NCBI GenBank assembly: GCA_027490195.1
Contig: JAIXYN010000053.1
Coordinates: 124,001-188,000 of the forward strand
DNA: 64,000 nt
Direction: 5' to 3'
From: Verrucomicrobiaceae bacterium
Lineage (GTDB): Bacteria > Verrucomicrobiota > Verrucomicrobiia > Verrucomicrobiales > Verrucomicrobiaceae
Under the pieces are notes generated by a model. The model was given only the letters and a program-made list of their open reading frames with translations, had not been told where the DNA came from and did not search any database. Below are positions 33,378 through 55,319 of the stretch, piece by piece. The position numbers and the translations under genes are program-made. How positions within the stretch are numbered: position 1 is the stretch's first letter; every line of letters begins with the position of its first letter.

Positions 33378-33409
33378 ACCACAAAGTGGTCCTGTTCCTG
33401 CGGAACAGG
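33378..33409 (-). terminator. Twin hairpins downstream of the SPFH gene
   Basis: Two adjacent perfect hairpins are present: ACCAC-aaa-GTGGT (33378-33390) and CCTGTTCC-tgc-GGAACAGG (33391-33409). A palindromic GTGCAG-ca-CTGCAC follows within 33416-33429. The position 40-70 bp beyond the SPFH stop suggests transcript end formation. The side-by-side layout also matches the palindromic element inside the RND gene at 51034-51087. Confidence 0.5.
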
Positions 33410-49541: not shown

Positions 49542-52500
49542 ATGTCCCTTCCCCGCTTCGCCCTCCGCCATCCCTGGACCGTCATCGTCATCGTCGTGGC
49601 GATCCTCCTCGGTGCGTGGCAGGCCAAGGAAAAGATGGCCCGCGATGTCTTCCCCACGCTTGGCATTCCGACCATCTACGTCGCACAGCCCTACGGCGGC
49701 ATGGACCCGCTGCAGATGGAAGGCTACCTGACCTACTACTACGAGTACCATTTCCTCTACATCGCCGGCATCGAGCACGTGGAGTCCAAAAACATCCAGG
49801 GCGCTTCGATCATGAAGCTCCAGTTCCATCCCGGCACGGACATGTCCGCGGCGCTCTCTGAAACCATCGCCTATGTCAACCGCGCACGCTCCTTCATGCC
49901 TCCAGGAACACCGGGTGCCTTCGTCACGCGTTTTGATGCAGGCAGCGTGCCGGTGGGCAATCTCGTCTTCTCCACCGAGAACCCCACCCGCACCGTCGGC
50001 CAGATGCAGGACGCCGCGCTCAACATGGTGCGCCCCCTTTTTGCAACTCTGCCCGGTGTTTCCGCCCCGCCTCCCTTCGGCGGCAGTGCGCGCACCATTT
50101 TGATCAATGTGAAGCCGGATCGCCTCCGCGCCTACGGTCTCTCGCCCGATGACATCGTCGCTGCAATGACCGCCGCCAACACCATCAGCCCCAGCGGCAA
50201 TCTCGCGCTGCCCAACAGCTTCCCCATCGTCCCCACCAACGCCATCGTCAAAAACATCCAGGACCTCGCCGCCGTGCCGGTCAAGGTCACCGACCAGGGT
50301 GCCGTCTATGTGCGCGACATCGGCGAGGTCAGCGACGGCAGCGACATGATGTACAGCATCGCCATGGTGAACGGCAAACGCACCGTGTACATGCCTGTCA
50401 CCAAGCGCAGCGATGCCTCCACGCTCAGCGTCGTCGAGCTGGTGAAACAAAACCTGCCCAAGTTCAAAGCTGCCTGCCCCGAGGACATCAACGTCACCTT
50501 TGAGTTCGATCAGAGCCCCTGGATCATCCGCGCCATCCGCGATCTCGTCAAAGAAGGCATCCTCGGTGCCGCCCTCACCGGCCTCATGGTGCTCCTCTTC
50601 CTGCGGGATCTGCGCAGCGCCTTCATCGTCATCCTCAACATCCCCCTCGCCATTGCCGCCGCCGTACTCGCGTTGTGGATCGGTGGCTACACCATCAATC
50701 TCATGACCTTGGGCGGCCTCGCACTGGCCGTCGGCATTCTTGTGGATGAAGCCACCGTCGAAATCGAAAACATCCATCGCCACATGAAGCAAGGGAGCGC
50801 GGGCACTCTTGCCCGCATCGTGCTCGACGCCTCCGAAGAAACCATCGGCCCGCGCTCGCTTTCCATGCTCTGCGTTCTCGCTGTATTCGTGCCGAGCTTC
50901 TTCATGACGGGTGCCGCCAAGGCGCTATTCCTGCCGCTGTCGCTCGCCGTCGGCTTCAGCATGATCGCCTCGTATCTGCTCTCCAGCACGCTGGTGCCGA
51001 TCCTGAACATCTGGTGGCATCGCAGTGCTCCTCGTAGCGCAACCGTCCCGGTTGCTCTGGCAGCTGCAAGCCAGAGGCTCGCACTACTGTTCAAACCCAG
51101 CATCGCCCTCCGCCACATCCTCGTTCCCGCCTACCTCGGTGGCGTGATCTTCGCCATCAGCATCCAGCTCCCCTTCATCGGCACGGAGATCTTCCCGCAG
51201 ATCGATGCCGGGCAGCTTCAGCTTCGACTACGTGCTCCTACGGCGACGAGGCTTGAAACCACTGAGCAGATCGCCCTGCGCACGCTTGCGATCATCGGTG
51301 AAGAAACCGGCCCCGATAAAGTCTCCATCAGCATGGGCCTCGTCGGCGTGCATGCGCCGAACTATCCCGTCAATCTCATCCATCAGTGGAACAGCGGCCC
51401 CGAGGAAGCCATCCTGCAAATCCAGCTCAAAGACGCCAGCGGCGTTGCCATCTCTCCGCTGCGCGAAAAACTCCGCGCCCGACTCGCCACCGAATTCCCG
51501 CAGATGCAGTTCTCCTTTGAGCCTGCCGACATCGTTTCTCGCGTCATGGCCCTCGGCTCACCCACGCCAATCGAAGTCGCCGTCAGCGGCAAAGATTTCG
51601 CCGCCAGCCGTGCGCATGCGGAACTGCTCAAAACCAAACTCACCGAACTCAAAGACCTTCGCGATGTGCAGTTCAGCCAGACGCTCGACTATCCCAGCGT
51701 CGATGTTCAGATCGACCGCGAACGCGCCGGCCTGCTCGGTGTAAAGATGAGCGATGCCACCCGCAGCCTCGTGGCTGCCACCGCCAGCAGCCGCTTCACC
51801 GTGCCAAATTTCTGGGCCGATACCAAAACCGGCGTTAGCTACTCTCTCCAAGTCCAGGTGCCGCAGACGCTCATGAAAGGCCTCGAAGACTTGCGCAATC
51901 TGCCCGTCACCGCGCAGAACAGACCACCGGTCCCGCTGCGCAACATCGCCAAGATCAGCGAAGGCAGCGTCATCGGCCAGTACGACCGCTACAACATGGC
52001 CCGCACCGTTTCCATCACCGCGAATCTTCACGACCAACCCCTCGGCGTCATCGCCAAACAGGTCGAAAAAATCATCGCCGCCAATCCAGCCCCCGCCGGT
52101 GTCAGCGTCACCCTGCGCGGCCAGGTGCCACCGCTCAGAGAACTCCAAAGCGGCCTGCAGACCGGACTGCTCATTGCCATCGTGACGATCTTCCTTCTCC
52201 TCGTCGCCAATTTCCAAAGCCTGCGCCTCGCCCTCATGGTGCTCACCACCATTCCTGCCGCGCTGCTCGGTGTCCTGCTCGCTCTCATGCTCACCGGCAC
52301 CACCTTGAATCTGCAAAGCTTCATGGGCGCCATCATGTCCGTCGGTGTCGCTGTGGCCAATGCCATCCTCCTCGTCACCTTCGCCCATCGCGCCCAGCTT
52401 ACCGGCCTGAGCAAACGCGACGCCGCACTGGAAAGCGCCACCACACGTCTGCGCCCCATCCTCATGACCACCCTCGCCATGATCGCCGGCATGGTCCCCA

Positions 52501-52658
52501 TGGCCCTCGCGCGTTCACAAACGAGCCCCCTCGCCATCGCCACCATCGGCGGCCTCGCCCTCGCCACCGTAGCCACTCTGCTCGTCCTGCCCGCCGTCTA
52601 TGCACTGCTCGCCAGCAAGACAGCGAAGACCGCCTCCCTGGAGCCACTTGAGAGCTAA
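49542..52658 (+). CDS. RND efflux transporter inner-membrane pump (AcrB/AcrF family)
   Basis: The 1038-residue protein has the two-fold RND layout: an N-terminal helix, a first periplasmic loop (FPTLGIPTIYVAQPYGGMDP), helices 2-6, a second loop and helices 8-12. Helix 4 reads LAVGILVDEATVEIENIHRHM, so the usual Asp-Asp proton relay of AcrB is Asp402-Glu403. In helix 10 the AcrB Lys position falls in GVAVANAILLV and is not Lys. This suggests an atypical relay, as in some acidobacterial-type branches. Residues about 419-426 and 498-515 are encoded by palindromic DNA and look inserted. It is the first gene of a pump-adaptor-TolC operon. Substrates are unknown. Confidence 0.93.
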   Translation: MSLPRFALRHPWTVIVIVVAILLGAWQAKEKMARDVFPTLGIPTIYVAQPYGGMDPLQMEGYLTYYYEYHFLYIAGIEHVESKNIQGASIMKLQFHPGTDMSAALSETIAYVNRARSFMPPGTPGAFVTRFDAGSVPVGNLVFSTENPTRTVGQMQDAALNMVRPLFATLPGVSAPPPFGGSARTILINVKPDRLRAYGLSPDDIVAAMTAANTISPSGNLALPNSFPIVPTNAIVKNIQDLAAVPVKVTDQGAVYVRDIGEVSDGSDMMYSIAMVNGKRTVYMPVTKRSDASTLSVVELVKQNLPKFKAACPEDINVTFEFDQSPWIIRAIRDLVKEGILGAALTGLMVLLFLRDLRSAFIVILNIPLAIAAAVLALWIGGYTINLMTLGGLALAVGILVDEATVEIENIHRHMKQGSAGTLARIVLDASEETIGPRSLSMLCVLAVFVPSFFMTGAAKALFLPLSLAVGFSMIASYLLSSTLVPILNIWWHRSAPRSATVPVALAAASQRLALLFKPSIALRHILVPAYLGGVIFAISIQLPFIGTEIFPQIDAGQLQLRLRAPTATRLETTEQIALRTLAIIGEETGPDKVSISMGLVGVHAPNYPVNLIHQWNSGPEEAILQIQLKDASGVAISPLREKLRARLATEFPQMQFSFEPADIVSRVMALGSPTPIEVAVSGKDFAASRAHAELLKTKLTELKDLRDVQFSQTLDYPSVDVQIDRERAGLLGVKMSDATRSLVAATASSRFTVPNFWADTKTGVSYSLQVQVPQTLMKGLEDLRNLPVTAQNRPPVPLRNIAKISEGSVIGQYDRYNMARTVSITANLHDQPLGVIAKQVEKIIAANPAPAGVSVTLRGQVPPLRELQSGLQTGLLIAIVTIFLLLVANFQSLRLALMVLTTIPAALLGVLLALMLTGTTLNLQSFMGAIMSVGVAVANAILLVTFAHRAQLTGLSKRDAALESATTRLRPILMTTLAMIAGMVPMALARSQTSPLAIATIGGLALATVATLLVLPAVYALLASKTAKTASLEPLES
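50799..50816. repeat. Perfect small hairpin inside the RND pump gene
   Basis: GCGGGCA-ctct-TGCCCGC is a perfect 7-bp stem with a 4-nt loop. It encodes part of MKQGSAGTLARIVLDAS, where related pumps usually have a slightly shorter M-x2-G-K-x-R-x-A-x-x-DAS segment. This suggests a small in-frame insertion. Confidence 0.5.
51034..51087. repeat. 54-bp cloverleaf-like palindromic element inside the RND pump gene
   Basis: The ends GTAGCGC (51034-51040) and GCACTAC (51081-51087) pair with one mismatch. Inside are two adjacent perfect hairpins, GCAACCG-tcc-CGGTTGC (51039-51055) and CTCTGGC-8 nt-GCCAGAG (51055-51076). The element is exactly 18 codons long with no stop and encodes the linker SATVPVALAAASQRLALL between two halves of the pump's membrane domain, a region of variable length in the family. 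Confidence 0.7.
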
Positions 52659-52748: not shown

Positions 52749-53735
52749 ATGCGCCTGCTGCTCTTCCTCCTCCTCGCATCCCTCTCTTCCGCGCTGGACC
52801 TCCCCGCCACCAAGCCCACCACCGGCTCCATCCATCGATGGGTCGCATTGCCTGCCACGCTCGCGCCATTTCAGCAGGCGGTGCTCTATGCCAAGGTCAC
52901 CGGCTACATCGCCACCATCAGCGTGGATAAAGGCGATACCGTAAAAGCTGGCCAAGTCATCGCCAAACTCGAAGTGCCAGAACTCCAGGCCGACCTCGCC
53001 AAAAGCAAAGCCGAAGTAGCAGCGGCCAGCCTTGAATCCAAGCGCATGCACGAAGCCCGCGCCAAATCCCCCGACCTCGTCCTGCCGCAGTCAGTAGAAG
53101 ATGCGGAAGCCCGCCTCGCCATCTCCAAGGCAGGCATGGACCGCGTCACCACCATGCTCGCCTTTGCAGAAATCAAAGCCCCCTTTGATGGCATCATCAC
53201 CGCACGTCACGTCGATGTCGGAGCTTTGGTAAACGCCCACACCAGCAAAGTCGTCGAGATCGTCGATGCCAGCACCCTGCGCCTCCAGATCCCCGTCACC
53301 GAAATGGAAACCGCCCTCGTCGCCGTCGGCAAACCCGTGAAAGCCCAGATCGATGCCAGCGGCCCCGCACCCGTCGAAGCCAGCATCTCCCGCATCGCCT
53401 ACGCGCTCGATCCCGCCACCCGCACCATGCTCGCCGAAGCCGACCTCAAAAACGCCGACCTCAAACTCCGCCCCGGCATGTACGCGATGGCCAAGATCGC
53501 CGTCGAAAAACACGACAAAGCCACCCTCATCCCCGTCGCCGGACTCGTCATGGAAAAGACCAACGCATTTGTCTTCAAGCATTTGGATGGCAAGGCCATG
53601 AAGACCGCCGTGAAGCCCGGCTTCAATGATGGCACGAATGTCGAAATCCCCGAACTCAAAGCCGACGACCTCATCCTCCTGCCCGGCCCCACACTGCTCA
53701 CCGACAAGCAGCCAGTAAACATCAAGAATCCCTGA
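52749..53735 (+). CDS. RND periplasmic adaptor (HlyD/MFP family)
   Basis: The 328-residue protein has a signal peptide (MRLLLFLLLASLSSALDLP). A split biotinyl-lipoyl domain (VLYAKVTGYIATISVDKGDT, GQVIAKLEVPELQADLA and later FAEIKAPFDGIITARHVDVG) surrounds a short coiled-coil hairpin of about 60 residues. It is followed by a beta-barrel domain (LRLQIPVTEMETALVAVGKP) and a membrane-proximal domain. There is no lipobox cysteine, so it is probably anchored by its uncleaved N-terminus or soluble in the periplasm. It should bridge the pump encoded upstream to the TolC-type protein encoded 3 bp downstream. Confidence 0.92.
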   Translation: MRLLLFLLLASLSSALDLPATKPTTGSIHRWVALPATLAPFQQAVLYAKVTGYIATISVDKGDTVKAGQVIAKLEVPELQADLAKSKAEVAAASLESKRMHEARAKSPDLVLPQSVEDAEARLAISKAGMDRVTTMLAFAEIKAPFDGIITARHVDVGALVNAHTSKVVEIVDASTLRLQIPVTEMETALVAVGKPVKAQIDASGPAPVEASISRIAYALDPATRTMLAEADLKNADLKLRPGMYAMAKIAVEKHDKATLIPVAGLVMEKTNAFVFKHLDGKAMKTAVKPGFNDGTNVEIPELKADDLILLPGPTLLTDKQPVNIKNP

Positions 53736-53738
53736 ACC

Positions 53739-55319
53739 ATGCAAAGCACGAGCGTCCTGTCAGAGAACCAACACCTTTCGTATCTGAAGAAACGAAACAG
53801 GGCATCGCTATTGTTGCTCGCCACTGCCTTAGCCTGGTTCATCAGCTACCAGGCTTATACTTCAAATCATCCTGGCATCATGATTGGCCTTGGTTCCAAT
53901 AGCCCCATTCCCACCTTTTGGGAATGCGTCGTTCAAGAGCCTGTTACGTACGCATTTGCAGCCCTAGGAGCTGTCCTCGCACTGTGGGCAGGCTTCGTTC
54001 TCTTTCGCAATGCTATAACTCATTTTCTCACGGGATCCATCGCTGCAATTCTTCTCACTGCGACGCTGGCCAACGCCGCCGATCCCGCCTTCGTCGATCT
54101 CCGCACCGTCATGCGCCTCGCCGGTGCCAACAACGACGAGATCCAACTCGCGCGCGCCAAACACGATGAGGCGATTGCAGAATCCAAGCAGGCATGGCAG
54201 CGCTTCTGGCCCACCTTGAGCTTAGGCGCAGGTTATCGCGGCCATGAGGGCCGCTTGCAGGACATTGCAGGCAGTGTCTTCAATGCGAACAAGCAGCAGT
54301 ACAACGTGGGTTCCAGCGTCTTAATCGACTGGTCTCCTGGAGACATTTATTATTCGGCACTCGCAGCCAAGCAGCGCGCACTGGCCGCCGAACACCTCGC
54401 TGAAAAATCACGCATCGACATCGTGACGCAGTCCGTGGACCGCTACTACGATCTCCTCGCCGCCGAGGCCATGCTCACCATCATCGAAGACGACCTCCAG
54501 CTCACCGAAGACTATGGCAAACAGCTCGAAGGTGCCGTCACCGCTGGCACCGCCTTCCGCGCCGACCTCCTGCGCGTCAAATCGCAGATCAGCCGCGCCA
54601 AGCTTTCCATTCGCCAGGGCCAGGAAAAGCGCGATCTCGCCGTTGCGCGACTCGCTGAAATTCTCCGCCTCACTCCCGATGCCACGCTGCGTCCCGCGAA
54701 GTCAGATCTCGTTCCCGTCAGAATGATGTCCGGCAAAGGCGTCGCCACCATGATCTCGCTCGCACAGCAAAATCGTCCCGAGATTCATGCCGCGCAGGCC
54801 ATTCACCATTCGATGGATGCCGAAAAAGATCGCGCCCGTGTCGCCCCATTGATTCCCAGTGTGCAGGCCGGTTACACCGCCGGCGGACTCGGCGGTGGCC
54901 CCAACGTCGGCAACCAATGGGGCAACTTCGGCAGCCAGCAGGACTACTACCTCGGCGTGGGTTGGAAGATCGGCCCCGGTGGCCTGTTTGATCGTCAGCG
55001 TCAAAAAGTAGCAGACGCCCGTGAAGAAAGCGCCTCTCTGCAAACCAGCCAGGTCAAGGCCGCCGTCGGACGCGAAGTCGTCGAAGCCGCCACCCGCGCA
55101 CAGTCAGCCAATGACCAAATCAAGATCAACGACGAAGCCGTCGCTGCCGCCGAAGAAATGACCAAGCTCGCCAAGGAACGCCAGGCCAGCCAAGTCGGCG
55201 TCGTCCTCGAATACCTCCTCGCCCGCGAAGAACTCACCCGCGCACGCCAAAGCCGCGTCATGGCCGTCACCGACTTCAACAAAGCCCAGCACGCCCTCAA
55301 GCGCGCCGTGGGGAAATAG
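53739..55319 (+). CDS. TolC-family outer-membrane protein with extra N-terminal membrane segment
   Basis: From about residue 114 onwards this is a standard outer-membrane efflux protein: two long coiled-coil repeats with VDLRTVMRLAGANNDEIQLA at the start, LTEDYGKQLEGAVTAGTAFR at the end of the first half, and LLAREELTRARQSRVMAVTD at the end of the second. Residues 93-113 (ITHFLTGSIAAILLTATLANA, then AD) look like its original signal peptide but have no start codon. Residues 1-92 add two unrelated hydrophobic helices (ASLLLLATALAWFISYQAY and VTYAFAALGAVLALWAGFVLF) with less GC-rich codons. Fusion or recombination at the 5' end is likely. Export may still use the internal signal. It is the last gene of the RND operon. 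Confidence 0.85.
   Translation: MQSTSVLSENQHLSYLKKRNRASLLLLATALAWFISYQAYTSNHPGIMIGLGSNSPIPTFWECVVQEPVTYAFAALGAVLALWAGFVLFRNAITHFLTGSIAAILLTATLANAADPAFVDLRTVMRLAGANNDEIQLARAKHDEAIAESKQAWQRFWPTLSLGAGYRGHEGRLQDIAGSVFNANKQQYNVGSSVLIDWSPGDIYYSALAAKQRALAAEHLAEKSRIDIVTQSVDRYYDLLAAEAMLTIIEDDLQLTEDYGKQLEGAVTAGTAFRADLLRVKSQISRAKLSIRQGQEKRDLAVARLAEILRLTPDATLRPAKSDLVPVRMMSGKGVATMISLAQQNRPEIHAAQAIHHSMDAEKDRARVAPLIPSVQAGYTAGGLGGGPNVGNQWGNFGSQQDYYLGVGWKIGPGGLFDRQRQKVADAREESASLQTSQVKAAVGREVVEAATRAQSANDQIKINDEAVAAAEEMTKLAKERQASQVGVVLEYLLAREELTRARQSRVMAVTDFNKAQHALKRAVGK

Follow-up and report, generated by a model that had tools for sequence, protein, structure and literature searches.

A REP dimer in the linker of an RND pump

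The window, i.e. the whole 64,000-nt stretch analyzed here, belongs to genome G000 (relatives are likewise given by G numbers) and carries a gene for a 1038-aa RND efflux pump permease (49542–52658, + strand; PF00873 ACR_tran, 4.6e-180; PDB matches include ZneA and CusA). It is adjoined by genes for a membrane-fusion-type protein (52749–53735, +; HlyD_D23, 4.3e-27) and an outer-membrane efflux protein (53739–55319, +; OEP, 2.4e-36). Within the pump ORF, an earlier note had pointed out a palindromic element at 51034–51087, and it lies exactly there, 54 nt long and without stops in the frame used. This length agrees with the 18 codons (498–515) assigned to it before; however, the first base is codon position 2, and codons 498–516 are touched. 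These codons are REP-derived, the element being carried in frame, and about 18 residues (RSATVPVALAAASQRLALL) are REP-encoded in the linker between the pump halves, which we take from RND topology to be cytoplasmic.

The element consists of two 22-nt units in inverted orientation, forming a head-to-head heterodimer of GTAG-tagged REPs (a REPIN) around a 10-nt spacer that is read directly from the sequence (51056–51065, unstranded). Unit 1 (GTAGCGCAACCGTCCCGGTTGC; 51034–51055, +) shows the GTAG tag, a 1-nt gap, a 7-bp stem and a 3-nt loop, matches the family pattern without mismatch and scores 37.0 bits with the covariance model introduced below. Unit 2 (GTAGTGCGAGCCTCTGGCTTGC on the minus strand; 51066–51087) has one stem mismatch, is a one-mismatch family match and scores 34.6 bits; both units are rows of the model themselves. 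The complementary ends GTAGCGC/GCACTAC noticed before pair at 6/7 positions. The two abutting perfect hairpins of the earlier description survive in part: the left one is perfect (GCAACCG-TCC-CGGTTGC), and the right one exists (CTCTGGC/GCCAGAG, 7 bp, 8-nt loop) but overlaps the left by one base. The latter is probably incidental, since the family structure instead pairs GCAAGCC with GGCTCGC (6/7), an inverted unit. The cloverleaf is one possible fold of the 54-mer; two inverted REP units fit better. When the window was searched strictly for pairs of non-overlapping perfect hairpins (stem 7, loop 3–8) within 54 nt, none emerged, because the two hairpins at 51034–51087 share a base.

As DNA, the element reaches a folding z-score of -2.70, with 1 of 200 shuffles equally good. 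The corresponding RNA value is -1.90 with 8 of 200 shuffles, so that folding energy by itself is modest evidence, and the reality of the element is decided by its recurrence in the genome and not by folding.

A possible second REP footprint lies upstream in the same gene (50794–50816, +). This stretch, GGAGCGCGGGCACTCTTGCCCGC, is a two-mismatch match to the GGAG pattern and forms a perfect GGAG-tagged hairpin, which differs from the GGAG-GCGGACA pattern by two compensating stem changes. It is identical in the pump gene of G012, has one further change in G016 and brings no length change relative to close homologues except G004. In the G004 pump gene (L070), a GTAGACCGAACTTTCCAGTTCGGTCT hairpin was seen in an apparent insert at a second loop, close to the position of residue 417 in the window protein.

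Elsewhere in the window, the side-by-side hairpin layout had been said to recur at 33378–33409; this is a different family from the pump element. Positions 33386–33409, between ORFs, hold GTGGTCCTGTTCCTGCGGAACAGG, a GTGG-tagged 8-bp hairpin, and the similar AAAGTAGCCTTGTTCCTGCGGAACAAGG occurs at C65 and C92 of the same genome, which suggests another REP family. A long direct-repeat array spans about 8650–29200, with many repeats spaced 489–531 nt apart and mostly 60–90% identical.

The repeat family and its RAYT gene

The family pattern GTAGNGCAANCNNCNNGNTTGC matches the genome 29 times with at most one mismatch and 44 times with at most two, compared with 0 and 9 matches of the reversed control. 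Two stem pairs left unconstrained by the pattern are complementary in 29/29 and 28/29 of the closer matches, with G-C/C-G swaps at both pairs and one T-A at the first. A wider count over 36 aligned units shows 4 of 7 stem pairs changed on both sides and 99% of cells paired, but is biased upward, because 8 of the 44 pattern matches were dropped by eye as non-hairpin before aligning. The covariance model built from these 36 units returned 36 matches to E 0.014 and a 37th at E 1.7, which was counted as the inverted partner of a neighbouring clear unit. Since the rows of the model match by construction, independent evidence comes from the pattern counts.

Altogether, at least 37 units are spread over 23 places of the genome, a lower bound given that the model scored 150 out of 5148 first-look candidates. 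The dispersed copies that the earlier note had predicted therefore exist, and its proposal of a REP-type unit fits the 7-bp stem, 3-nt loop and GTAG tag. The refuting outcome named there, a 54-mer unique in the genome together with homologous pumps having the linker without palindromic DNA, did not arise: taken as a whole, the 54-mer lacks a near-identical second copy, yet both of its units recur. An 81-nt region compared with its own genome gave partial matches elsewhere, the best with 80% identity over 54 positions. As in GTAG REPs (6–13 bp stem, short loop), each of the 36 aligned units bears the GTAG tag or a near variant of it. As in REPINs, 10 inverted pairs of 49–63 nt carry GTAG on the outside, and 13 of the 23 places are without an inverted pair. 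With regard to a possible MITE nature, the ends are inverted copies, and no target-site duplication was noticed by eye at the pump junctions or at those of ileS and the PSCyt/PSD1 gene described below.

A palindrome arising by chance in GC-rich coding DNA would account for a fold just 1.9–2.7 standard deviations better than shuffles. It has next to no probability in view of the 29 copies against none in the control, the complementary stem swaps and a RAYT gene bordered by matching units; the dispersed copies led us to reject it.

This RAYT gene encodes a 241-aa ORF (L003:779–1504, minus strand) that scores 84.7 bits with NCBIfam REP_Tyr_transpos (cut-off 80). Its true start is probably further downstream, because the called N-terminus includes REP-encoded residues. 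The sole PDB match to E 0.01 is TnpArep 4er8 (E 9e-4), and the HVH motif and a downstream Tyr are invariant in 7/7 orthologues. The genome has 16 Y1_Tnp matches, none of the others having a covariance-model unit nearby; this number also indicates that further RAYT or IS200-type genes are present.

Seven of the 48 genus genomes have a close RAYT orthologue (at least 75% identity); among the matches listed, those that follow reach about 50% identity or less. One and the same neighbour gene adjoins the RAYT in all seven. At each locus, an AACCG-type unit in the orientation of the gene precedes it on the 5' side, and one or more AGCC-type units follow in inverted orientation on the 3' side. The RAYT gene is flanked by this REP type on both sides at 7/7 orthologous loci, and three of these (G000, G027, G011) have an additional same-strand AGCC-type unit on the 3' side. 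The pump dimer has these two end types, from which we infer that the REPIN resembles both extremities of the RAYT locus with the gene left out. Counted by pattern with at most one mismatch, the seven RAYT genomes hold 11–39 units each; in the remaining 41, the median is 1. Uncorrected for relatedness, this association reaches p 3.8e-5 (Mann-Whitney), or 1.3e-4 without G000. Copies also occur in genomes without a close RAYT, namely 20 in G004 (mostly GTGG-tagged), 15 in G058 and 13 in G020.

The element had also been likened to Rickettsia palindromic elements, of which RPE-1 is longer than the element described here. The two agree in lying in frame inside genes and differ in the tag, which is CGTC in Rickettsia (RPE-4 and RPE-6 carry it, according to the parts of PMC3733652 accessible to us) and GTAG here; CGTC repeats are described there as lacking an association with transposase genes, unlike the GTAG family of this genome. 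The closer relationship is with the GTAG REP superfamily as presented in the same parts of that paper (Di Nocera et al. 2013): shared features are the GTAG/GTGG tag, a short stem with loop, head-to-head dimers, heterodimers, occurrence in genes, linkage to RAYTs and a verrucomicrobial host. GTAG and CGTC repeats are both reported there within genes, the GTAG ones reaching their highest count in the verrucomicrobium Opitutus terrae; dimers or groups of 20–30 codons make up the majority of the intragenic inserts, and flexible linkers or loops are named as tolerant places. As in-frame intragenic GTAG dimers in O. terrae are already described, the element is of a known kind. The "undescribed family" of the earlier note is half right: the kind is known, and the family itself may be distinct from the 24 GTAG families of PMC3733652. 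The arrangement also resembles the REPINs of Pseudomonas fluorescens SBW25, inverted REP doublets with a RAYT in the genome (Bertels and Rainey 2011, PMC3116915, as far as accessible). Our count of at least 37 units is low for a REP family and far below that of the SBW25 REPINs.

Elements within genes and the pump linker in relatives

In G000, in-frame occurrence within genes, as the earlier note had claimed for the pump, is firm at 8 of the 23 places on the evidence of ORFs, Pfam and GC by codon position. An extragenic location is the usual view of REP and REPIN elements. The other places comprise 3 doubtful N-terminal cases, 2 unclear ones (C6, C82) and 10 where the element is covered by no convincing gene or lies at the RAYT. 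For comparison, and counted differently, the most abundant 16-mers of SBW25 occur 1,067 times and overlap genes in 14 of these cases, according to the accessible parts of PMC3116915.

Six of the 10 inverted pairs lie firmly inside genes, namely those for an FG-GAP/DUF7133/cytochrome protein, isoleucyl-tRNA synthetase (ileS), the RND pump, a second DUF7133/cytochrome protein, a PSCyt1/PSCyt2/PSD1 protein and a YfbK-type vWA protein. Two single units lie in genes for a DUF7133 protein and an FAD oxidoreductase, the latter unit falling within the Pfam match and not in a linker. In ileS, the element occupies codons 675–691, between the catalytic (34–643) and the anticodon-binding domain (696–848), and the best-matching solved structure, IleRS 1ffy, has seven residues fewer at this site. 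G011 carries units in four orthologous genes (proteins 79.8, 89.8, 92.8 and 94.8% identical).

For the pump, homologues were matched in 39 of 56 genomes searched, and 35 junctions were read with anchors set by eye, as for the two other genes below. The linker ranges from 24 to 67 codons over these junctions, in line with the variability ascribed to it before. The element is present in four of them, intact in G032, nearly intact in G000 and altered in G016; in G022 the same stretch is open, but the palindrome is no longer intact. It is absent from the other 31, including the pumps of G020 and G001, which are 95–96% identical in protein. A clean gap in the homologues, which the earlier note had expected, was not found: linkers with the element have 26, 27, 30 and 31 codons, compared with 24–28 in 28 of the 31 without it (33, 40 and 67 in the other three), and ZneA aligned across the linker differs by one residue. 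Such similar lengths imply that native residues were replaced or lost. By pattern, the GTAG family is the only REP family found in the pump linker. The 67-codon linker of the G012 pump (L095) contains an inverted repeat, CCCTCTCCCCGG/CCGGGGAGAGGG, unlike the REP families found here.

On a pump tree of 20 rows built by a quick method with the linker left out, the REPIN state requires at least 4 changes, and shuffled labels average 3.7–3.8. With clustering no better than shuffled, simple inheritance fails to explain the distribution. One explanation is that linker alleles are exchanged by recombination, a patch with an older REPIN having passed between species by gene conversion with no fresh RAYT insertion. 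These state changes speak for it, as does the right flank, which reads LFKPSI in all four REPIN alleles and LFLPSL in the close relatives G020 and G001. Moreover, G000 and G020 are 93–96% identical in the alignable flanks, and the divergence is confined to the linker and about 24 nt to its right, which cannot be aligned. Against this stand the unequal spacers of the dimers (10 nt in G000, 7 nt in G032), and the element's first entry into the linker still needed some route. We regard recombination as rather less likely than not.

The element might instead be kept as a DNA or RNA signal (an mRNA hairpin, an attenuator or a protein-binding site), the protein change being a by-product. Roles in supercoiling, termination and mRNA stability have been proposed for REP hairpins (PMC3733652, in its accessible parts). 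Nevertheless, the open frame with a broken palindrome in G022, the 31 of 35 junctions without the element, and the ileS and PSCyt/PSD1 linkers, which hold other families or none, make this explanation very improbable.

A further alternative is that the REP-encoded peptide was taken up for a protein function, with selection for a hydrophilic or amphipathic linker. In its favour, five of the six intragenic dimers share one phase, each starting with V-x-Q-(A/S)-S, and ASQRLALLF in the pump stands at the site of ESALRWLF or similar residues in relatives. However, the pump is in the other phase, and with two phases open, 5/6 falls short of significance (p 0.11); we claim no phase preference. We consider such uptake unlikely; the peptide may rather be neutral filler.

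Different REP families in the same linkers

In the ileS and PSCyt/PSD1 genes, one linker holds different REP families, with GTAG, GTGG or GGAG tags, depending on the species. For ileS, matched in 41 of 48 genomes with 30 junctions read, GTAG/GTGG-GCAA units were found in six linkers (one being G000) and GTGG-ACAGG in two, at up to two mismatches. By eye, the ileS linkers of G007, G065, G028, G024, G026, G006, G009, G061 and G067 show CACAGATTC-type, AATCCTGT-type and other repeat-like or palindromic sequences. For PSCyt/PSD1 (matched in 45 of 48 genomes, 30 junctions read), five linkers carry GTAG-GCAA (one being G000), six GGAG-GCGGACA and 19 none. Here the elements add length: linkers without an element have 24 (16 cases) or 31 codons (three cases), compared with 33–52 in the 11 with one. 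The 24-codon linker in 16 of 30 orthologues represents a near-clean empty site. On a tree of 30 rows made by the quick method, the three states need 8 changes compared with 10.2 when shuffled, and values as low occurred in 6 of 200 shuffles.

Both additional families are dispersed as well. Of the 48 genus genomes, 40 contain the GGAG pattern (controls 0) and 14 the GTGG-ACAGG pattern (two genomes with a single control match each, the rest with 0). Their copies border matches that, at 42–49% identity, are RAYT-like by sequence, on G007:C8, G025:C46, G060:C74 and G066:C737, those of G025 and G060 having an internal stop.

Across the three genes, i.e. 34 pump loci (a second G018 copy left out), 30 ileS and 30 PSCyt/PSD1, patterns with at most two mismatches gave 40 matches in 11,229 nt of linker compared with 4 in 221,921 nt of flank, an excess that is inflated by shared ancestry and by the choice of three genes for their element in G000. 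One of the 40 (G002) is the other strand of an already counted palindrome, and at least one of the four flank matches is the GGAG hairpin at 50794. The other two families contribute 13 linker matches, all in ileS and PSCyt/PSD1 linkers, and these are independent of the G000-based gene choice.

In our view, the 54-mer is very probably a non-autonomous REPIN, served in trans by the RAYT of its own genome, that entered the pump linker in frame with loss of native residues. E. coli TnpAREP processes GTAG-hairpin DNA, and by analogy the RAYT of G000 would do the same and may have moved the pump element. Judging from the gene contexts seen, rare in-frame arrivals in tolerant linkers would persist, and the REPIN could survive in the pump because the reading frame stayed open. 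Arrival presumably preceded the loss of native linker residues, by which the pump linker would roughly keep its length. The pump allele may have come by insertion and deletion or through recombination with a different species. Later, the palindrome may decay with the frame kept, of which G022 appears to be an example.

The broader reading, for and against which we see about equal weight, is that linkers between domains of conserved proteins are recurrent landing pads in this genus. At least three families, GTAG-GCAA, GTGG-ACAGG and GGAG-GCGGACA, all having copies next to RAYT-type genes, would colonise, replace one another and decay in frame within the same few codons, depending on the species, and would thereby be a steady source of linker sequence, even in an essential enzyme. 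A related case is recB of X. campestris and X. oryzae, which carries different REPs at about one site (PMC3733652); that different families return to one linker in many species goes beyond what the accessible parts of that paper describe. Searches of open-access papers turned up no account of REP families replacing one another repeatedly at the same linkers, weak evidence that the pattern is new, and the accessible parts of PMC6006769, PMC8049555 and PMC12306157 hold nothing decisive on this pattern.

Altogether, roughly one in three places of a single REP family is intragenic, including one in a tRNA synthetase, and different REP families recur at the same linkers genus-wide. With this, one can test whether selfish palindromes regularly supply proteins with linker sequence, and whether tolerance, target preference or recombination underlies their recurrence.
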